Below are positions 32,785 to 41,886 of a stretch of DNA of 64,000 nucleotides, one piece after another. Below the pieces are notes generated by a model. It ran no database searches, was not told the origin of the DNA, and saw only the letters and a list, made by a program, of their open reading frames with translations. Origin of the DNA: Streptomyces sp. T12 (lineage in GTDB: Bacteria; Actinomycetota; Actinomycetes; Streptomycetales; Streptomycetaceae); assembly GCF_028736035.1 (NCBI RefSeq), contig NZ_CP117866.1:7915001-7979000 (forward strand), read 5' to 3'. How positions within the stretch are numbered: position 1 is the stretch's first letter; each line of letters begins with the position of its first letter. The position numbers were made by a program, and so were the translations under genes.

Positions 32785-32830
32785 GCGCTCCCCATACGAC
32801 TCGATCGCTCTCTGGCCCGCCGCCGGCGTC

Positions 32831-32942
32831 CCGGACAGGCTCAGTCATCCACGTCGGCACACCATGCTGACGTATCCCGGACAGGCTCAGTCATCCACGT
32901 CGGCACACCATGCTGACGTATCCCGGACAGGCAGTCATGGAC
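32831..32942. repeat. 46-bp tandem repeat
   Basis: Two perfect 46-bp copies (32831-32876 and 32877-32922) are followed by a partial third that breaks after about 20 bp (32923-32942). Each unit starts CCCGGACAGG and contains CATCCACGTCGG and CACCATGCTGACG. It lies between the hypothetical gene and the precursor promoter. Confidence 0.9.
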
Positions 32943-33169
32943 ACCGTGCCTCACCCCCGAACGGATAGGCAACTGCCTCCCTGGCAGCAGGTCATGCAGG
33001 GCCTGTTCTTTCACGGTTCCAAATTCCTTGAAATGCTTGAGTAAATAGATTCTTCATGCGGTATCGGCGGATCTCCGAAAGAGTCTTGAAGGCCACTGAT
33101 GAATGTGATTCCGTCTGATTCAAGAGGTTGGCCGACCGGTCATCCGTTAATCCCGAGTTGGGGGATGTC

Positions 33170-33346
33170 ATGTCTGTGACGTCACTGTCCGAGCGACTCG
33201 CCGGCAATGGACTGCAGCAGCATCTGCACGCGGAGGCGACGGCTGTGGAGGAGGGTTGCATTCCGCGCTATGAGTCGTGCGCCTGGGACTCTCAGTGCTG
33301 CCACGGCCTGATCTGCGAGTGGTTCCACTGCTACCTGCAGGGCTGA
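33170..33346 (+). CDS. Knottin-like (inhibitor cystine knot) RiPP precursor peptide
   Basis: This 58-aa peptide starts at ATG 33170, five bases after GGGGGA. Residues 1-28 look like a leader (acidic, amphipathic, 'LSERLAGNGLQQHLHAEA'), and 29-58 like a core beginning at Gly29. Six cysteines fall at 30, 37, 43, 44, 49 and 54, giving C-x6-C-x5-CC-x4-C-x4-C. That is the framework of inhibitor-cystine-knot peptides such as spider gating modifiers (ProTx-II is CX6CX5CCX4CX3C) and omega-conotoxins. The core is also rich in aromatic residues (Tyr34, Trp39, Trp51, Phe52, Tyr55). There is no Sec signal. The neighbours are lasso-type B and C homologues, a PqqD-type RRE, a MauE-thioredoxin fusion, a protease and an exporter, all downstream on the same strand. 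A lasso ring from Gly29 to Glu35 is conceivable, but the usual Thr at -2 is absent. Confidence 0.85.
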   Translation: MSVTSLSERLAGNGLQQHLHAEATAVEEGCIPRYESCAWDSQCCHGLICEWFHCYLQG

Positions 33347-33364
33347 CAGCCGGCGGATGAATGC

Positions 33365-33411
33365 CCCCGTCGGGGAGGTGGACCCGGAACAGGTCCACCG
33401 CCCCGGCGGGG
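33365..33411 (+). promoter_or_regulatory. Intercistronic hairpin after the precursor gene
   Basis: A long near-perfect stem: outer arms 33365-33375 and 33401-33411 (11 bp with one G-T), an A/G mismatch, inner arms 33377-33384 and 33392-33399 (8 bp), and a seven-base loop. It starts 18 bp after the precursor stop and has no T-run. It probably stabilises the precursor mRNA or reduces read-through into the enzymes, so that peptide outnumbers enzyme. Confidence 0.8.
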
Positions 33412-33477
33412 TCGGGACGACCGTGAAGGGGGCGCGACGGCCCCACTCCACCACCGCGGCAGCCTGGGGGCAGCGGA

Positions 33478-33873
33478 ATGCTGAGACTGTGGAAAGCGGC
33501 GCGGACGGCACGGGAGTTCGTGTTGTCCGCCCGGCGTGACGGCGGTACATACGAACTGGAATGGCCGCACGTGCAGCGGAAATTCGGTGCGGCAGCGCGC
33601 GGCGCGCCGTCCGCAGTGGCCCGGCTGCGAATAGCAGAAAGAATACTCATGGGTTTCCTCGACCCGGTCGAGGATGCATTGTTCGTGGCCGCGGGCCTGA
33701 TTTCGCTCGGATATCCGGCCTCCTTTCATATCGGCCGGGAAACGGCCCCGGTCGTGGCACCGGGGGGCTTCTACGCCTGGGTGCAGTGCGCCGGCGCCGT
33801 GGTGAGCACCTCGCTGCCCGTCCGGGAGGAGTACACCGAGGTGCTGCGCGCAGGGGAGGAAGCATCGTGCTGA
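33478..33873 (+). CDS. Lasso peptide B2-like (transglutaminase-fold) protein, catalytic residues lost
   Basis: This 131-aa protein aligns by eye with the C-terminal protease (B2) that removes the leader of lasso peptides. It shows the helix 'ALFVAAGLISLGYPASFHIG' and the strand 'GGFYAWVQCAGAVVS' in the right order and spacing. In active B2 proteins the first helix begins with the catalytic Cys (G-C-L-x-R-S-L) and the strand holds the catalytic His (HAWVE). Here those positions read Asp62 ('LDPVEDAL') and Tyr99 ('YAWV'). Two of three triad residues are gone, so it should not cleave peptides; it may bind the substrate or act as a scaffold. ATG 33478 has a weak GGGCAGCGGA site. It overlaps the next gene by seven bases. 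Confidence 0.72.
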   Translation: MLRLWKAARTAREFVLSARRDGGTYELEWPHVQRKFGAAARGAPSAVARLRIAERILMGFLDPVEDALFVAAGLISLGYPASFHIGRETAPVVAPGGFYAWVQCAGAVVSTSLPVREEYTEVLRAGEEASC

Positions 33874-35321
33874 AGGTCGTGACCACAGACCGTCACGATG
33901 CCGTGACCGCGCCCGTGGGTCCCCGGGGCCTGGCGCTGGAACGGCGGGAGATCGGCGAGAGGGATGTGTACTACCGCGTCGGTCCCGGGCGGCTGGAGTG
34001 GAGCGAGGACCCCGCGGACCTCGCCGGTGGAAGGGACGGGCAGCTGCCCGACAGGCACCTTCCCGCACCGGGCACCCTGCTTGCCCTGGTCCACGGTCTG
34101 GCTCCGCCACCGGACGCCACACCGCTGCCGGGGGTCCGCCGTCTGGCGCTGGGCACAGCGGTGCACGTGGGCCCCGATGGGGTCACCGTCTCCCGCCGAC
34201 GGCCGACCCTGCCGGCCGAGTCGGGCAGTCTCCTGGGGGCAGTCGCCGACGTCCTGGCCGCTGCGCCCGACGACTATGCCATCGCCTACGGCGGTGGACT
34301 GTCGTCCGCCTTCCTCGCGGTTGCCGCGCTGGCCGTCGGCCACCGACCGCAACTGGTCCACGCCGACCTGGGTCTGCCCGGCTTCCGCCCGGCCCCGGCT
34401 CCCCTTCGCGGGCTGGACGTCCGCCGGGTACCGATCGACGTGTTCGACCTGCTCGACCATCACCGGGCGCCCCTCGGCGGATTGACGCCGACCCTGCCCG
34501 ACGTGGAGTTCCCCCGCAGGCTGGCCGCCGCTCTGTCCTCCGCGGCAGGACGGCCGCTGGCTTCGGCCGCGCTCCTGGAGGACCTGGCCGCCGCCAAACT
34601 GTCGGACCTCGACATGGGATACCGCGACTGGCGGCTCCTGACCTGCGAACCGTTCCACCTCTCCGGTGTGCTGCCCTCCCTGCGGGAGGCCGCCGACCTG
34701 CTGGCGCAGGGCGTGGTGCGCAGCGATCGGCCCGACGCGGGCGTCCCTGAAGACGCCCAGCCTCTCGACGGGCCTCCTCCGCCTCCCCCGCTGGGCAGGC
34801 GCGACCTGCCGGTGATGACGCCGCAGGGCCGCGTCGCCCTGCAGACGACCCAGCAGGCATCCCTGTCCGTCTGGAAGGACCATCTGGATTTCCTGGGCCC
34901 GCTGCTGGGCCGCGCCGACGCCGGGGTGACCGAACGGGTGCCCCGGGACAGCCTGGTCCTTCCGGCCCTCGATCCGTTGGTGCTGGGGGCACTGGAGGCC
35001 CTGCCCCCCGAACGGCTCGGCCGCGTCTCCCGGGGGCTGTTCCGCAACAACGGGCCGCTGGTCGCGGCGGTCGCCCGGCATCGGGTGCGTGGGCTGCGAC
35101 GCGCCTCGTCGTCGTTCGACCTCAGGCTCGCGGCAGCCGCCTATCTGCATCGCGAACGCGCCAAGATCATCGATGAGCTGGAGCGGGAGAGCGCCCTGGC
35201 GGACATGGGGGTGATCGACCCGGGCGCGGTGGCCGGTCTGATGAGGAGCGGCCCCGGCCGCGCGGACCACGCCCTGCCGCTGCTCCGACTGCTGTGGATC
35301 GACCGATGGCTGAAGGGCTGA
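33867..35321 (+). CDS. Asparagine-synthetase-like (lasso cyclase C-type) protein with altered PP-loop
   Basis: This 484-aa protein has the layout of lasso peptide cyclases. A degenerate amidotransferase-like N-terminal domain without the Ntn cysteine contains 'PLPGVRRLALGTAVHV'. An ATP-pyrophosphatase domain begins at about residue 125. Active members carry SGGxDS in the PP-loop, needed to adenylate the ring Asp/Glu. Here it reads Y141-G-G-G-L-S-S147, with Leu145 where the Asp should be and Tyr for the first Ser. ATP use is therefore doubtful or changed. A six-proline run lies near residue 307. GTG 33867 is preceded by GGGGAGGA. The likely role is binding or tailoring of the precursor with the B-like and RRE proteins. 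Confidence 0.75.
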   Translation: MLKVVTTDRHDAVTAPVGPRGLALERREIGERDVYYRVGPGRLEWSEDPADLAGGRDGQLPDRHLPAPGTLLALVHGLAPPPDATPLPGVRRLALGTAVHVGPDGVTVSRRRPTLPAESGSLLGAVADVLAAAPDDYAIAYGGGLSSAFLAVAALAVGHRPQLVHADLGLPGFRPAPAPLRGLDVRRVPIDVFDLLDHHRAPLGGLTPTLPDVEFPRRLAAALSSAAGRPLASAALLEDLAAAKLSDLDMGYRDWRLLTCEPFHLSGVLPSLREAADLLAQGVVRSDRPDAGVPEDAQPLDGPPPPPPLGRRDLPVMTPQGRVALQTTQQASLSVWKDHLDFLGPLLGRADAGVTERVPRDSLVLPALDPLVLGALEALPPERLGRVSRGLFRNNGPLVAAVARHRVRGLRRASSSFDLRLAAAAYLHRERAKIIDELERESALADMGVIDPGAVAGLMRSGPGRADHALPLLRLLWIDRWLKG

Positions 35322-35326
35322 CCGCC

Positions 35327-35584
35327 ATGACCGCTCCCGCAAGGCACCCCTCCGGGCGCTTCGTCCTCGGCCCCGGAGTACGACTGACGTGGCTCCCCTT
35401 CGGGGGCGCGGTCCTGCTGAACGAAAAGACCCTCGCCCTTGCCGAATGCGTCGAGGAGGACGCCGCGGTGATGGAGCGCCTGTTGGCGGGCGAACGGCCC
35501 GACCCCGGCGACCCGGACGTACGGCGAGTGGTCCGCGACCTGTTGACATCCCAGTGGCTCGTCGTCACCGACGAAGCGAAGTGA
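35327..35584 (+). CDS. PqqD-like RiPP recognition element
   Basis: This 85-aa protein has the PqqD winged-helix pattern: 'RFVLGPGVRLTWLPFGGAVLLNEKTL', then a helix, 'DPDVRRVVRDLLTSQWLVV'. PqqD-type domains (RRE) bind the leader peptide and deliver it to modifying enzymes; lasso B1 proteins are of this kind. It starts at ATG 35327, just after the cyclase-like stop; an ATG at 35306 is an alternative that would overlap it. Of the three lasso-like proteins this one keeps the most typical sequence, which supports true precursor recognition. Confidence 0.82.
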   Translation: MTAPARHPSGRFVLGPGVRLTWLPFGGAVLLNEKTLALAECVEEDAAVMERLLAGERPDPGDPDVRRVVRDLLTSQWLVVTDEAK

Positions 35585-35590
35585 GGTCCC

Positions 35591-36382
35591 ATGCCATCCC
35601 GACTTCCGCAGGCGGCGCTGGCCGCACTGGCCGGACCGCTGCTCGTCGGCGGTGCCGCGAAACTCCTCACCCCCGCGGCCCGGCTGGCGTGGCCGTACCG
35701 CAAAGGACCCCTGCGCGCGCCGCTCGGGCCCCGTCTGGCGGGCGGTGCGGAACTCGCCGCGGCGGCCTCGCTCGTCCTGCTGCCCGGCCGCGCGGCTCCG
35801 GCCGCCGCCGTGGTCACCTACGGCACGCTGACCGCCGTGGCACAGTCCCTGGACGGACAGCGCTGCGCGTGCTTCGGAGCCGCCCGCCTGGCGACCGTGG
35901 GCCGAGCGCACATCGGTGCCAATGCCCTGGGCAGCGCCGTGGCGGCCACTCTGCTCGCCTGCGAGCTGCCTGCCCGGCCCCGGCTGCGCGGGGCGACCGC
36001 CGCGCTGGCCGCCACCGTGACGGCGGCCGCCGTACTCTTCGCCGACCGGCAAAGGGCACAGGGGGCGGCGGATGCGGTGGAACGCTGCGAGCAAGCGGTG
36101 GCCGCCGTACGGCTGTACGTCTCGGACAACTGCCCCGCGTGCCGGGCGCTCAAGCAGCTGCTCGGTGCGATGGAGCCGGTGCGCCAGGACCGCGTCACCC
36201 TGACGGTGGTCGGCAGCGGCAGCGAACTGCCGCCGGAGATGGCGGACATGTCGGTGCCGTGCGCCCTGCCGGTCGACGCGGCCGGCGACCCCGTCTGCTC
36301 GCCGGTTTCCGGGATCGGGGCGGTCAAGGCTCTGATCGACACCGTCGTCATCGCCGGGGCGGACGCGCCGCATGCCGCCTGA
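35591..36382 (+). CDS. MauE-type membrane protein fused to a thioredoxin-like CPAC domain
   Basis: This 263-aa fusion has an N-terminal MauE/DoxX-like domain with four hydrophobic segments (about 5-25, 48-66, 70-86 and 106-150) and the conserved Cys pair 'RCACFG' (Cys92, Cys94). A C-terminal thioredoxin-like domain follows (about 165-255, 'VRLYVSDNCPACRALKQLL', Cys181 and Cys184). MauE proteins help form disulfides, classically in methylamine dehydrogenase. Fusion to a CxxC thioredoxin resembles a self-contained oxidase-isomerase pair. Beside a six-cysteine precursor it is the obvious candidate to make the three disulfides. The gene begins 6 bp after the RRE stop and overlaps the protease gene by 11 bp. 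Confidence 0.82.
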   Translation: MPSRLPQAALAALAGPLLVGGAAKLLTPAARLAWPYRKGPLRAPLGPRLAGGAELAAAASLVLLPGRAAPAAAVVTYGTLTAVAQSLDGQRCACFGAARLATVGRAHIGANALGSAVAATLLACELPARPRLRGATAALAATVTAAAVLFADRQRAQGAADAVERCEQAVAAVRLYVSDNCPACRALKQLLGAMEPVRQDRVTLTVVGSGSELPPEMADMSVPCALPVDAAGDPVCSPVSGIGAVKALIDTVVIAGADAPHAA

Positions 36383-38630
36383 ACCTCTGGGGTCCGCCGT
36401 CCTCGCCCGGCCCGGCGGAGCCGCACACGACACCGTGCTCTTCCGGCCGGATCTGTCCGTCTGGGCCGTACTCGGCTCCGCCGAACGGCCTTCCGTGGCC
36501 GACCACAACCCCCGGACCGTCCACTGGCGGGACCTGCCGGTGGATCCCGGCCTGGCCGGTGTCGCGCCGGCACGTGCCCGGCACGCCGACGTGGTGATCG
36601 GCGGCGTGCCAGGATCCCCTCCGTGGCGGCTGCCGCTGCGGACGGTCCTGTCCGCGGGGCTCGCCTGGCATCCCCGACTCCCCCTCGTCGCGGGCCTCGT
36701 CCAGCAGGGCGAGGGCCTGCATCCATGGAGCGCCGACTACGCGACCCGTCGGCTGACTGTCCACCAACGCGTGCGGGCCGCGCTGTCCCTGCTCTGCCGC
36801 CGCCCGGGCCGATCGGTCCTCGCATGGTGCTCGGACGGGCAGTCGGCCCTTCTTGCGCTGCCTGCTCTCGTGGCGACCGGCCCGCCGGACGAGGGCGGCC
36901 AGGACCGGGCGTGGAGTCCGATGGTGTACGAGGCCGCAGGACCGGGTCATGTCGCCTTCGTGCCCGGTCACGCCGAACTCCTGCGCCTGGCCGGCGCCTC
37001 GGTGTCCGTGGTCGACCCGGTCACCGGAGCCCTGCGCACGCTGACCCCGCCGTTGCTCGTGGGAGGCCTGGAATCCTCTCCGAGCGGACGGCGACTGCTC
37101 GTCGAGCACAGCACCGCGGCCGACAGCGGCCCGGCGCAGCGGCCGCCGGGGCCCGGCGACGGGCTCGTCTGGTCTCGCGCCGTGCTGCGGACCGACAGTG
37201 GCTCTTGGGCGGCCGTGCCGGCAACCACCCGCTGGGCCACGGGGCACGACGGGGACACGACGGCCGCGAGCACGGTCGTCGCGGGGGGCACGGCGATCGA
37301 GTTGCACACGCTGCCCGACGGCGAAGGTCCCCCCGCGGCCGAGGAGCGGGTCGCGACCGCCGGACTGACGGTCACTCACGAAGTCGACGACCCACCCGTG
37401 TGGTGGCACTGCCTGACAGTGGGCGGCGAGCCGGCCGTCGTGAGCCGCCACCGCGCTTCGCTTCGCCTGCGCACGGGTGCGGACGACCTCCGCGTGGCGC
37501 TGCCGCGGGCACTCGGTAGGCTCGGCCCGGCGGCGGCCGGTCCCGACGCGGCAGGGGTCGTCATCTCCTGTGTGCTGGACGGCCGGGCGGGGTTCCTCCG
37601 GCTGGACCGTGGCGAGCCGGTCGCCTGCATCGCGGTCGAGCCACCGGGGGAAGGCGACGACGCCCCCCTCGAAGCCAGCTGGGCCACGGTCGAAGACGGT
37701 GTCCCCCGCCTCATCACGCGTCGTGCGGGACGCTTCGCCCGCCACGAGCTGTGCGGCCTGCGCCTCGATCCGGCGCACGGGACCGTCCCCCCGCCGGTGT
37801 GTCCGGCGCCGTCCCGCACCCGGGGTCGAGCCGCGCCACCCGCGCACGTCCTGGCCCCGCCGCCGGGAGGGGAGAGCCCCCGGCTGACCCACGTCGACGG
37901 CCCGGCCCCAGGAGCGCGGGCGGCGGCGCAGCTGCTGTGGATCCAGGTACGCCGGAGCACCGGCACACCGACGGGTGGCACAGCAGTGGAGGGTGGCGCA
38001 GCAGCGGACGGGGGCGCCCCCGTCCATCTCACCGGCCTGCGGTCGCGCACCTGGCTGCTCGATCTCCCGCTCATGTGGACGGCCGACGTCCGGCCGGACG
38101 CTGTCCGGCAGCAGATCGTCCATGCGGTCGATCAAGCCGTGGCGATCCTGCGGGAACGGCCCCCGCGGGGCGGCCCCGTCGTTGTCGGCGGCCACAGTTT
38201 CGCCGCCACCGTCGCCCTCCACGCCCTTGCCCACTGCCCGTCACTGGCGGGCGCGATAGCGCACAGCGGGTGCTACAACCGGACGCTGACGCCGGAGGGT
38301 TTCCAGTACGAGCGGCGTAGCTACTGGCAGGTCCCCGAGCTCTACCGGGCCTTCAGCGCCCTCGACTTCGCCGACCGCCTGACCCGCCCGGTGCTGCTCG
38401 TCCACGGCCTCGACGACACCAACGCGGCCACCCCGCCGGACCAGGCGGTGGCCCTGTACCGCGCCGTCGTGGCCACCGGTGGACGGGGCCGGCTTGTTCT
38501 CCTGCCGTACGAGGGACACAACTTCCGCCACCGCGAAAGCCTGGAGACCGTGGCACGGGAGCACGACGCATGGCTGGCGGCCTGCGTCGCACTCTCCGAT
38601 CACCGGGCGGAGAGCCTGGAAAGGACCTGA
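36372..38630 (+). CDS. S9 prolyl-oligopeptidase-like serine peptidase
   Basis: This 752-aa protein has a poorly conserved N-terminal region consistent with a beta-propeller (about 1-520) and a C-terminal alpha/beta-hydrolase domain. The catalytic residues are Ser609 in 'VVGGHSFAA', Asp681 or Asp682 in 'VHGLDDTNAATP' and His716 in 'YEGHNFRH', as in the S9 family. There is no signal peptide, so it acts in the cytoplasm. With the B-like protease degenerate, it is the best candidate to remove the leader. Lasso isopeptidases such as AtxE2 also belong to this superfamily, so a role in turnover or immunity is the alternative. The gene overlaps the previous one by 11 bp. It has several degenerate Gly-Gly-Thr-Ala repeats near residue 540. 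Confidence 0.8.
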   Translation: MPPEPLGSAVLARPGGAAHDTVLFRPDLSVWAVLGSAERPSVADHNPRTVHWRDLPVDPGLAGVAPARARHADVVIGGVPGSPPWRLPLRTVLSAGLAWHPRLPLVAGLVQQGEGLHPWSADYATRRLTVHQRVRAALSLLCRRPGRSVLAWCSDGQSALLALPALVATGPPDEGGQDRAWSPMVYEAAGPGHVAFVPGHAELLRLAGASVSVVDPVTGALRTLTPPLLVGGLESSPSGRRLLVEHSTAADSGPAQRPPGPGDGLVWSRAVLRTDSGSWAAVPATTRWATGHDGDTTAASTVVAGGTAIELHTLPDGEGPPAAEERVATAGLTVTHEVDDPPVWWHCLTVGGEPAVVSRHRASLRLRTGADDLRVALPRALGRLGPAAAGPDAAGVVISCVLDGRAGFLRLDRGEPVACIAVEPPGEGDDAPLEASWATVEDGVPRLITRRAGRFARHELCGLRLDPAHGTVPPPVCPAPSRTRGRAAPPAHVLAPPPGGESPRLTHVDGPAPGARAAAQLLWIQVRRSTGTPTGGTAVEGGAAADGGAPVHLTGLRSRTWLLDLPLMWTADVRPDAVRQQIVHAVDQAVAILRERPPRGGPVVVGGHSFAATVALHALAHCPSLAGAIAHSGCYNRTLTPEGFQYERRSYWQVPELYRAFSALDFADRLTRPVLLVHGLDDTNAATPPDQAVALYRAVVATGGRGRLVLLPYEGHNFRHRESLETVAREHDAWLAACVALSDHRAESLERT

Positions 38631-38633
38631 CCG

Positions 38634-40586
38634 ATGGCACGAGTCGACGCGGAGCACCCTGACGGCCTGGACACGACCTCGGACGAGACCGGTGAGGAGG
38701 CACGGATCAGCACCGCCGACCTGATGCGGGCCAGCGCGTACATGGTGCGTATGGCATGGCGGGCGGACCGTTCGCGGCTGGCGGGCATTGTCGCGGTGCA
38801 GTTGCTGACGGCGGCGGGCCTGGCCGCGCTGGTGCTGGTGCTGCGGGACATGCTGGGAACGGCGTTCTCGCCCGGCGGCGCGGGCGGCCCGTCGGGGGAC
38901 GGACTGCTCCTCGCGCTGTGCGGGCTGGTGGTGCTCACCTCCGCGGGCGGCATTCTGCGTACGGTCGCGAGCGGCTGGCAGCGGATGCTGACGGTGAAGA
39001 CCGACCGGCACATCATGGCCGCGGTGCTGCGGAGTGCGGCACGGTCGGACCTCGCCCGCTTCGAGGATCCGGCGTTCCATGACCGGCTGCAACAGGCCGT
39101 GTTCGCGTCGCGGTCCCAGCCGGTGATGGTGGTGACGGCCCTGATCGGCGCGCTCCAGGCGCTGTTGAGCATGGCCGCGGTGGGAGCCGCGTTCGCCGTC
39201 ATGACCTGGTGGCTGCTGCCGTTCACTCTGCTGGCCGTGCTGCCCGTGCTCAAGGCGGCCCGCGATGAACGGGACGCCGACTACCGTCTGCACGGGCAAC
39301 TGGCGGAGGGCCGCCGGGCGCGCGAGTACCTTGAGCACCTCCTGGCCGGGCACGACGCGGCCAAGGAGATCCGCGCCCTGAACCTGGGCGACACCCTGCG
39401 CGACCGCTGGAACAGCGGCTACGCCCGGGAAATCGCCAGTACGGCCGCGATGCAGCGTCGGCACACCCGGCGCAAGGTGCTCGCGCGGCTGATAGGTGAT
39501 GTCCTCTTCGTCGCCGTCATCGGCGGTATGTGGTGGACGGTACGCAGTGGCGGCGTCGCCCTTCCCACGGCGCTGGCCGCGCTGGCGGCGTTGCTGATGC
39601 TCGCCACCCGCGTGCAGATGCTCGGCTACCTCTTCAACAACATCGGCGCCTCCGCCGCGTACGTGAAGGACATCCGCACCTTCACGCGGGACGGCGACGG
39701 CACGGATCGCGGGCGCGCTGCCGCGCTGCCGGACGACAGCCGCTCTCCGGCCTCGCCGCCCACGCGGCCGGCCTTCTCCTCCCTGCGCGCCGACAGGATC
39801 TCCTTCACCTATCCGGGCTCCGCCGGGGCCGCGCTGCACGACGTGTCGGTGGAGCTGGGCGCCGGCGAACTGATCGCCGTCGTGGGAGCGAACGGCTCGG
39901 GCAAGACGACACTGGCGAAGATCCTCGCCGGCCTGTACGAGCCTGACGGCGGGTGCTTGCTGTGGAACGGGCTCGGCGAGTCCCGCCCCGAGCTGCGGCG
40001 GGCCGCGACGGCGATGGTCTTCCAGGACTTCGTCCGCTTCAAGCTTCCCGCTCGGGACAACATCGCCTTCGGCCGTCCCGAGGAGCCCGCGGATGTGGAC
40101 GCCGTCACCGGTGCGGCGGCCGAAGCGGGGGCCCGAGGCGTCATCGAGGGGCTTGCGCAGGGCTACGAAACGGTCCTGAGCAAGGAGTTCAGCAACGGCG
40201 CCGACCTGTCGCTGGGCCAGTGGCAGCGGCTGGCCTTGGCCCGCGCCTTCTACCGAGACTCGCCCTTCGTCATCCTGGACGAGCCGACCGCCTCCCTCGA
40301 TCCGCAGGCGGAGGCCGATCTCTTCGGCCGCATCCGCACCCTGTTCGCCGGCCGGACGGTTCTGGTGATCTCCCACCGGTTCTCCAACGTCCGCGACGCC
40401 GACCGGATCTACGTCATGGAGTCCGGCCGGGTCATCGAGCAGGGCACCCACGACGAACTGACCGCGGCCGACGGCACCTACGCCCGGCTGTTCAGGCTTC
40501 AGGCCGAGGCGTACCAGCACGGTCGGCGCGGTCAGCGCCGCAAGGGGCCGGCCGACGGAACGGCCGCGGTTGCCGCACTGCCCTGA
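38634..40586 (+). CDS. ABC transporter, fused permease and ATPase
   Basis: This 650-aa half-transporter has a hydrophilic N-terminus of about 35 residues, a six-helix type I exporter domain (about 40-350) and an ATPase domain. The ATPase has Walker A 'GANGSGKTT', a Q-loop, the signature 'LSLGQWQR' (LSGGQ variant), Walker B 'FVILDEPTA' and the H-loop 'VISHRFS'. It resembles lasso D-type and other peptide exporters, but it has no peptidase C39 domain, so leader cleavage must be separate. It starts three bases after the peptidase stop and is the last gene of the putative operon. It probably exports the mature peptide and so gives immunity. Confidence 0.88.
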   Translation: MARVDAEHPDGLDTTSDETGEEARISTADLMRASAYMVRMAWRADRSRLAGIVAVQLLTAAGLAALVLVLRDMLGTAFSPGGAGGPSGDGLLLALCGLVVLTSAGGILRTVASGWQRMLTVKTDRHIMAAVLRSAARSDLARFEDPAFHDRLQQAVFASRSQPVMVVTALIGALQALLSMAAVGAAFAVMTWWLLPFTLLAVLPVLKAARDERDADYRLHGQLAEGRRAREYLEHLLAGHDAAKEIRALNLGDTLRDRWNSGYAREIASTAAMQRRHTRRKVLARLIGDVLFVAVIGGMWWTVRSGGVALPTALAALAALLMLATRVQMLGYLFNNIGASAAYVKDIRTFTRDGDGTDRGRAAALPDDSRSPASPPTRPAFSSLRADRISFTYPGSAGAALHDVSVELGAGELIAVVGANGSGKTTLAKILAGLYEPDGGCLLWNGLGESRPELRRAATAMVFQDFVRFKLPARDNIAFGRPEEPADVDAVTGAAAEAGARGVIEGLAQGYETVLSKEFSNGADLSLGQWQRLALARAFYRDSPFVILDEPTASLDPQAEADLFGRIRTLFAGRTVLVISHRFSNVRDADRIYVMESGRVIEQGTHDELTAADGTYARLFRLQAEAYQHGRRGQRRKGPADGTAAVAALP

Positions 40587-40612
40587 GACCGCCCGGCCGG
40601 CGGCGGCTCAGG
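40582..40612. terminator. Likely bidirectional terminator at the end of the peptide cluster
   Basis: An interrupted stem (CCTGAG with CTCAGG at the outside, CCGCC with GGCGG inside) spans the ends of the converging ABC transporter and regulator genes. It has no T-run, which is common in Streptomyces. Confidence 0.5.
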
Positions 40613-41594
40613 AGGCGAGGGCACCCAGCAGCCGTTCACCGCGCCGGGTCAGCAGCAGCCGCACCTGCTGACCCTGACGCTTGCGCCGGACGAGTCCGGC
40701 CGCCTCCAGCAGCTTGCAGTGGTGCGTCGCGGCTCCGGGCGCGCACTGGAGCAGCGCGCTCACCTCTCCCATGGTCAGCCCCCGGTGTGCGTGACGCATG
40801 ACCCGGGCCCGCATACCGCCGAGAACCGCCTCCAGAGGGTCGAGGGCACGGTGGTTCGTGGTGGCCGAACCGGCTGCCAGCTCCCGCAGCCCCGGCACGG
40901 GGTAGCCGATCCAGGACGGGCCCTTGCCGCCGAGGCCGAGCACGGCCGCGGTGGTACCGGACACCAGGGGAACGAGCAGGAGCCTGCGGTCGGGCAGGTC
41001 CAGCGTGCCCGCGGCGCGCCCCGGCAGCCACAGCCCCTCCGGGGTCCGGTGGACGCGAGGACCGAGCCCCGTCAGGGCGGTGTCCAGTGTTCCGGTGACC
41101 GCGGCGATACCGATGCGCTCCACCTCACGTTCGAGAAGGTGCCGCGACCGATGCCATACCGGCGCGAACGCCGACCAGATACCCGCCGCCGCATGGACGT
41201 AGCCGTCGATGAACGGCGCCGGCCGTTCGAGTACGCGTTGCCACGCCTCGGGGATGCCGGCCGGGAACCTCTTGGCCAGTTCCTCGCCGAGTTGCTCCGT
41301 GGTGACCGCGGCCGCCCGGTCGAGTTGTGCGGGGACATCGTCCGTGTCGAGCGGAGAAGGGGACAGACAGTCCGGCAGCCACAACCGGTCGCTGCCGCAC
41401 GCGGGACTCAGCGCCTGGGCCGCGGCGCGCGGACACGCGCGGCGAGCCGCGGACCGCCACTCGGGCGGTACCCCCTGGACGGCCGCGCCGAGGGCATCGG
41501 CCAGCAGTGACAGCACCGTCGGCAGAGGCTGACGGCACACGGAAACCCTCAGACGGGCCACGGGCCCTAAGCGCAGTATGGACTCGTTCCTCAC
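40608..41594 (-). CDS. ArsR-like winged-helix regulator with N-terminal DUF5937-type domain
   Basis: This 328-aa protein ends in an ArsR-type winged helix (about 245-325, 'TMGEVSALLQCAPGAATHHC', 'KLLEAAGLVRRKRQGQQVRL'). A long N-terminal region ('LRVSVCRQPLPTVLSLLADAL') is typical of a Streptomyces family I know as DUF5937. GTG 41594 is chosen for the GGGGGAG site; longer frames are not supported. It converges on the peptide operon, 22 bp from its end, and may be its regulator. The metal-binding cysteines of classical ArsR proteins are not obvious, so the signal is unknown. Confidence 0.82.
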   Translation of the reverse strand: MRNESILRLGPVARLRVSVCRQPLPTVLSLLADALGAAVQGVPPEWRSAARRACPRAAAQALSPACGSDRLWLPDCLSPSPLDTDDVPAQLDRAAAVTTEQLGEELAKRFPAGIPEAWQRVLERPAPFIDGYVHAAAGIWSAFAPVWHRSRHLLEREVERIGIAAVTGTLDTALTGLGPRVHRTPEGLWLPGRAAGTLDLPDRRLLLVPLVSGTTAAVLGLGGKGPSWIGYPVPGLRELAAGSATTNHRALDPLEAVLGGMRARVMRHAHRGLTMGEVSALLQCAPGAATHHCKLLEAAGLVRRKRQGQQVRLLLTRRGERLLGALAS

Positions 41595-41729
41595 GTGCTC
41601 CCCCGTTTGTTCGCAGCAGCCCCTCCGGTCCTCGTCCGAGCCGGTCGCCGCCGGAGAAGCCGTGGTCTGTTCGCTGTTGCGGGAGTCAGTCAAGAACACC
41701 GGTGCGCGGGCGTGAACCTGAGAGGTCTG

Positions 41730-41752
41730 AGGGTGAGCGGCAGCCTCACCTT
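41730..41752. promoter_or_regulatory. Possible operator upstream of the regulator
   Basis: The inverted repeat AGGGTGAG (41730-41737) with CTCACCTT (41745-41752) matches at seven of eight positions around a seven-base centre. It lies about 140 bp upstream of the regulator start, where a self-binding ArsR-type protein could act. Chance occurrence cannot be excluded in GC-rich DNA. Confidence 0.3.
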
Positions 41753-41886
41753 GACAATTGCACGCCAGGGACGCGTCACCGCGCCGCGCCGAGGCAGGCA
41801 CCAGATCCACCCCCAACTCCTGCCCCCCACCAGCACTTCAAGTCCGCCGAACGCCTATCCACGTCCGGACAGAATGGAGTCGCTCA

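Follow-up and report, generated by a model that had tools for sequence, protein, structure and literature searches.

Can a bacterium build a genuine knottin from a ribosomal precursor, and if so, with which enzymes? The question is raised by a short gene in a 64,000-nucleotide stretch of the Streptomyces sp. T12 chromosome (contig NZ_CP117866.1, positions 7,915,001 to 7,979,000; hereafter the window), which lies at 7.9 Mb in the 11.46 Mb genome. The gene encodes a 58-residue product with the cysteine spacing of an inhibitor cystine knot (ICK), and six co-directional open reading frames (33478-40586) follow on its 3′ side. Our analysis indicates that the locus probably encodes a knottin pathway of the ribosomally synthesized and post-translationally modified peptide (RiPP) type, in which a degenerate pair of lasso-peptide enzymes neither cleaves nor cyclises the peptide any more. 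The precursor gene and its predicted parts are as follows.

33170..33346, plus strand: knottin precursor gene, 58 residues (open reading frame; 47 matching proteins including its own; nonsynonymous rate, dN, far below synonymous rate, dS)
33170..33253, plus strand: predicted leader, residues 1-28 (common to most homologues)
33254..33343, plus strand: predicted core, residues 29-58, with six Cys in ICK spacing (profile, AlphaFold2 and structural matches)

A conserved six-cysteine precursor

The reading frame runs from an ATG at 33170 to the stop at 33346, and its cysteines at positions 30, 37, 43, 44, 49 and 54 form the pattern C-x6-C-x5-CC-x4-C-x4-C, a loop spacing of 6-5-0-4-4. The frame is present as the initial annotation had described it; the exact spacing occurs a single time across the six frames of the window, and 100 dinucleotide shuffles of the window yielded 0 exact and, in total, 3 relaxed-pattern matches. 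The shuffles together with the homologues described below rule out a chance origin of the cysteine pattern. The ATG at 33170 is supported as the start because the homologues align from the same place, and a G-rich stretch lies immediately 5′ of it. No sigma-70-like promoter was found in 32900-33600. Closely upstream of the cluster, at 32829-32932, is a perfect 46-bp tandem repeat of 2.3 copies.

The precursor peptide was found in 8 of 392 genomes of the same genus, that of T12 included, and 47 proteins, again counting the window's own, matched a profile that was run against a set of 5.8 billion. Removal of the near-duplicates P0002 and P0003 left 45 precursors, own included, which are the basis of the family statistics given here. 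In 42 of these, loop 1 has 6 residues and loop 2 has 5 (the exceptions being P0041, P0043 and P0046), and the exact spacing of the window peptide recurs in 18. The first half of the peptide, noted from the start as leader-like, carries a motif approximating SxxxRLxxxGLQQHxxxEPTxVxE that is conserved in most members, while P0029, P0034 and the peptide at locus L017 have a different leader and P0045 and P0048 a short N-terminus. A Glu stands one or two residues before the first Cys in 39 of the 45 precursors, and we infer from this conservation that the leader would be cleaved after it. At five loci (L034, L035, L036, L042 and L049) a single cluster holds a tandem pair of precursor genes with different cores.

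Comparison of the window gene with five diverged Streptomyces copies (L026-L029 and L031) gave dN of 0.015-0.09 and dS of 0.43-1.05; a sixth copy, L025, is near-identical and hence uninformative. As judged from these substitution rates, the precursor gene is under purifying selection.

Lasso-type enzymes without key catalytic residues

A locus scan with the alignment and patterns of the adjoining B2-like protein gave 31 loci in 11 actinobacterial genera; because the scan used B2-like patterns, it would miss knottins that lie next to different genes, as at L017. The initial annotation had named a lack of homologous peptides beside similar enzyme sets as one of the results that would tell against it. 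Such peptides are there: a precursor lies directly upstream of the B2 gene in 29 of the 31 loci (10 genera), loci L033 and L048 with their variant cores included. The two loci that have no precursor are L043, whose contig starts there, and L055, where a short B2 remnant stands alone. The two genes next to the window's precursor, and the altered sites within them, are listed below.

33478..33873, plus strand: B2-like protein, relative of the lasso leader peptidase (PF13471, altered catalytic columns)
33664..33666, plus strand: Pro63 codon at the B2 catalytic-Cys column (joint alignment)
33772..33774, plus strand: Tyr99 codon at the B2 catalytic-His column (joint alignment)
33867..35321, plus strand: C-like protein, relative of the asparagine-synthetase-type lasso cyclase (GTG start at 33867; hhalign, AlphaFold2)
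34290..34310, plus strand: degenerate PP-loop GGGLSSA replacing SGGxDSx (sequence comparison)

Pfam PF13471 matches 23 of 24 B2-like family members, the best at 3.6e-9; the window protein matches PF13471 at 2e-4 and NF033537 at 0.0029, both below the curated cut-offs. Two further comparisons were less telling, as the B2 alignment found one weak match among Protein Data Bank chains (yesE, E 0.049) and hhalign of the B2-like protein against a single ordinary B2 was uninformative at a probability of 3%. In a joint alignment, the catalytic-Cys column holds Pro in 24/24 family members, as against Cys in 29/29 ordinary B2 proteins, and the catalytic-His column holds Tyr in 18, Phe in 5 and His in 1 of the 24. 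A recount over the 31 loci (Pro in 29/29 that hold the stretch; Tyr 24 and Phe 7 in the His column) was not used, because these very residues were part of the patterns by which the loci had been selected.

Pfam gave no match for the C-like protein in the five of five members tried. Its kinship is indicated by hhalign, in which a 25-member C-like alignment matched 14 intact C proteins at E 7.9e-10, and by an AlphaFold2 model that matches TsnB9 and beta-lactam synthetase. In beta-lactam synthetase the Asp of the SGGxDS motif is a ligand of Mg-ATP; in the present family this Asp is missing from 29/29 loci. As a control, enlarged regions were taken for 18 of the 29 ordinary B2 loci, the shorter loci having reached the motif in 7/29, and 14 of these 18 ordinary lasso-type regions carry an intact SGGxDS. 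By alignment, then, both the B2 nucleophilic Cys and the Asp of the C-protein ATP motif are absent from the family. The initial description of the enzymes as lasso-like therefore stands in part: the homology to B2 and C holds, while the loss of key catalytic residues from both makes a joint lasso-plus-knot product unlikely. For the same reason, the disulfide knots are likely made with a retired lasso machine.

The C-like protein might instead have changed its function and add a further modification to a core with a knottin scaffold. Its loop GG-x-S and the motif EPFH are invariant, and many columns are invariant or nearly so in 25 proteins, which exceeds what a relic would need; related PP-loop folds, for example LarE (listed among sulfur transferases), carry out other chemistry. 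The uniform absence of the Asp that binds Mg-ATP speaks against it, and we regard a catalytic C-like protein as rather unlikely.

Predicted fold of the core

An AlphaFold2 model of the core has a predicted local distance difference test (pLDDT) score of ~90. Among the structural matches listed, most are cystine-knot peptides, with weak E-values for a very short chain; an analogue of ProTx-II (6mk4) is one of the Foldseek matches, and no defensins are among those listed, an absence that carries no weight against a defensin fold. Profile comparison with solved ICK peptides likewise gave ICK-type loop sizes and mostly ICK matches, and the solved knottins matched are mainly from animals and plants. 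The core is thus predicted by modelling to fold as an ICK miniprotein, in agreement with the knottin-like core first proposed. The proposed likeness to gating modifiers fared poorly. Gating modifiers are usually cationic, and the net charge of the cores (K+R-D-E, 45 precursors) has a median of -2 and a range of -5 to +2; the analogy was not adopted. A classical cationic membrane peptide is disfavoured too, because the cores are mostly acidic.

A six-cysteine peptide of another kind, with its disulfides paired differently, a fold like that of Dickkopf or a bound metal, appears improbable. Dickkopf chains are among the structural matches listed, Dickkopf_N is the Pfam family that the window peptide matches best, albeit below the cut-off (3.8e-4), and some database records label the peptide a Dickkopf-domain protein; deviating members also exist, namely the precursors at L033 and L048 with C-x6-C-x5-CC-x13-CC and P0030 with an extra Cys pair. 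The preponderance of ICK peptides in both the profile and the structure comparison, and loops that keep their 6 and 5 residues across nearly the whole family, argue for the knot.

It is very improbable that the product is a disulfide-bearing lasso peptide, in which a macrolactam would join the N-terminus of the core to Glu35 in addition to the disulfides. In favour of this reading, the cluster encodes relatives of lasso enzymes, and the window peptide has a Glu at ring position 7 if Gly29 is residue 1. However, Asp or Glu occurs at ring positions 7-9 in just 9 of 45 precursors (counting either of two starts, and with the window peptide among the nine), and both enzymes lack key catalytic residues. 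A lasso peptide as the product was rejected on these residue tests of B2 and C, the ring position of the window's own peptide giving no clear verdict.

A conserved gene set with intact redox, peptidase and export motifs

The predicted knottin precursor is followed, in this order, by the B2-like, C-like, PqqD-like B1, MauE-like/thioredoxin-like, S9 peptidase and ATP-binding cassette (ABC) exporter genes. The last four are these.

35327..35584, plus strand: PqqD-like B1, leader binder of the RiPP recognition element (RRE) type by homology (NF038044 at 7.9e-24, above cut-off)
35591..36382, plus strand: MauE-like domain (CACFG) fused to a thioredoxin-like CPAC domain (Pfam in homologues, motifs)
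36372..38630, plus strand: S9 (prolyl-oligopeptidase family) peptidase, putative leader peptidase (PF00326 at 1.4e-10)
38634..40586, plus strand: ABC exporter (PF00005 at 2.6e-25, ABC motifs present)

The six genes, assigned at the outset to recognition, redox, proteolysis and export, indeed form a conserved set with the precursor: all seven are present in 21 of the 31 loci. Contig ends break 5 others (L028, L038, L043, L050 and L053), 3 hold the first four genes alone (L033, L039 and L048) and 2 are remnants. Both remnant clusters are apparently decaying; in one a precursor frame runs into a B2 remnant (L054:5868-6134), and the other is an 18-residue B2 remnant (L055:3312-3365).

Pfam MauE matched 2 of 3 homologues tried, below cut-off, and did not match the window's own protein, yet the CACF and CPxC motifs are found in 28/28 MauE-like/thioredoxin-like proteins, the window's included. 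The window's S9 peptidase has all of its Ser, Asp and His motifs. Across the family the nucleophile motif GGHSF is present in 23/27 (of the other four, three are cut by contig ends and one lies in the decaying L054), and all three motifs were caught by the patterns used in 17/27. The ABC motifs are present in 22/23 exporters, the remaining one being cut. That redox, S9 and ABC motifs were retained while those of B2 and C were lost is our chief reason for regarding the pathway as alive and its lasso chemistry as abandoned. That the family is a decayed lasso cluster without a product is barely credible, since the purifying selection on the precursor, the gene order kept in 21 loci and the redox motifs kept in all 11 genera rule out a pseudogene cluster as the general reading, even with two remnant loci and three more that lack the later genes.

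The B1 reading frame is open from a GTG at 35294. NF038044 is the NCBI family 'actinodefensin-associated protein B', and a survey of 396 genomes across the phylum found 5 with a match at E up to 0.001, of which the 1 above cut-off is T12 itself; the survey thus yielded no actifensin locus. That genome has, at 5.57 Mb, a second lasso-like cluster (L024:7007-9835) with an intact B2 (Cys, HAW) and an intact C (SGGIDS), in which no precursor gene was found. Its B1 also scores above the NF038044 cut-off, which rules out this family as a specific marker of actinodefensin loci.

Two further loci of interest lie outside the gene set. At L017:8422-9917, a knottin with an unrelated leader adjoins P0004, which is PqqD-like by eye and has a CxxC segment; L017 gave no B2-like or C-like matches and P0004 no Pfam or NCBIfam match. 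L017 is possibly a second bacterial knottin context. Convergent with the window's cluster, a minus-strand gene at 40608-41816, also present in L011, has weak C-terminal matches of ArsR/MarR winged-helix type below cut-offs and is possibly a regulator.

Proposed pathway

We propose the following route. The PqqD-like B1 would bind the conserved leader motif of the precursor, and the B2-like and C-like proteins would serve the core as a non-catalytic holdase or threading scaffold, so that no macrolactam would be made on it. The MauE-like/thioredoxin-like fusion would oxidise the core to its three-disulfide form, the S9 peptidase would take over removal of the leader after the conserved Glu, and the ABC transporter would export the mature knottin. 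According to PMC5067487, the B1 of lasso pathways captures the leader and hands it on to B2; the paper also mentions that a role in prefolding has been proposed for the B protein. The product might be a stable secreted antagonist of other organisms, a guess prompted by the neighbouring genes.

Relation to known systems

The NCBIfam name 'actinodefensin' denotes what we take to be the same kind of peptide as actifensin; no paper on 'actinodefensin' was found in the open literature searched. The actifensin locus of Actinomyces is the nearest described system that we found, compared by its description in parts of PMC6989792. There, the precursor of a six-Cys bacteriocin has a leader and a Glu directly before the mature peptide (position -1), a locus can hold several precursors, and downstream come three hypothetical genes and those for an ABC transporter and an alpha/beta hydrolase. 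The six-Cys leader precursor, the Glu, the multiple precursors of some loci, the transporter and the hydrolase have counterparts in the present family. The window's B1 belongs to the 'actinodefensin-associated protein B' family, NF038044 not being specific. Actifensin is described as defensin-like, whereas the window core has ICK spacing.

With lasso peptides the family shares related B2-like and C-like proteins and a PqqD-like B1; it differs in the lost B2 Cys and C Asp, in a ring acid that is mostly absent and in the added MauE-like/thioredoxin-like fusion and S9 peptidase. Lasso isopeptidases, as presented in sections of PMC9266682, are also alpha/beta-hydrolase serine peptidases adjoining lasso-type genes, but here the peptidase accompanies a predicted disulfide knot that has no isopeptide bond. 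Eukaryotic ICK knottins from spiders, cone snails, squash and sponges have the same cysteine framework and predicted fold; the present family is bacterial, has a leader and an RRE-type B1 gene, and its cores are mostly acidic.

Sponge knottins are reported as RiPPs in the abstracted text of PMC13418204. Passages of PMC13352647 treat lasso peptides and cystine knots both as [1]rotaxanes and state that the cystine-knot motif occurs in all kingdoms of life; no bacterial example is named in those passages. Judged by the titles and abstract openings listed (at most 20 per search), no paper on a bacterial knottin or ICK RiPP was found in the open literature searched. We suggest, tentatively, that the family may represent a RiPP class new to actinobacteria, in which a lasso peptidase and cyclase lost their catalytic function but were retained as a chaperone that threads the peptide. 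One mechanically interlocked peptide would thereby have been exchanged for another, with a disulfide ring in place of the isopeptide ring, and bacteria would have a route of their own to genuine knottins.

Knottins are prized as stable scaffolds, and a genetically tractable pathway in bacteria that includes a leader, its binder and a dedicated redox enzyme would open their biosynthesis to study. If the proposed pathway is correct, it would show plainly that two RiPP enzymes can persist together after losing their catalytic residues, and a separable folding role of lasso enzymes would become testable.
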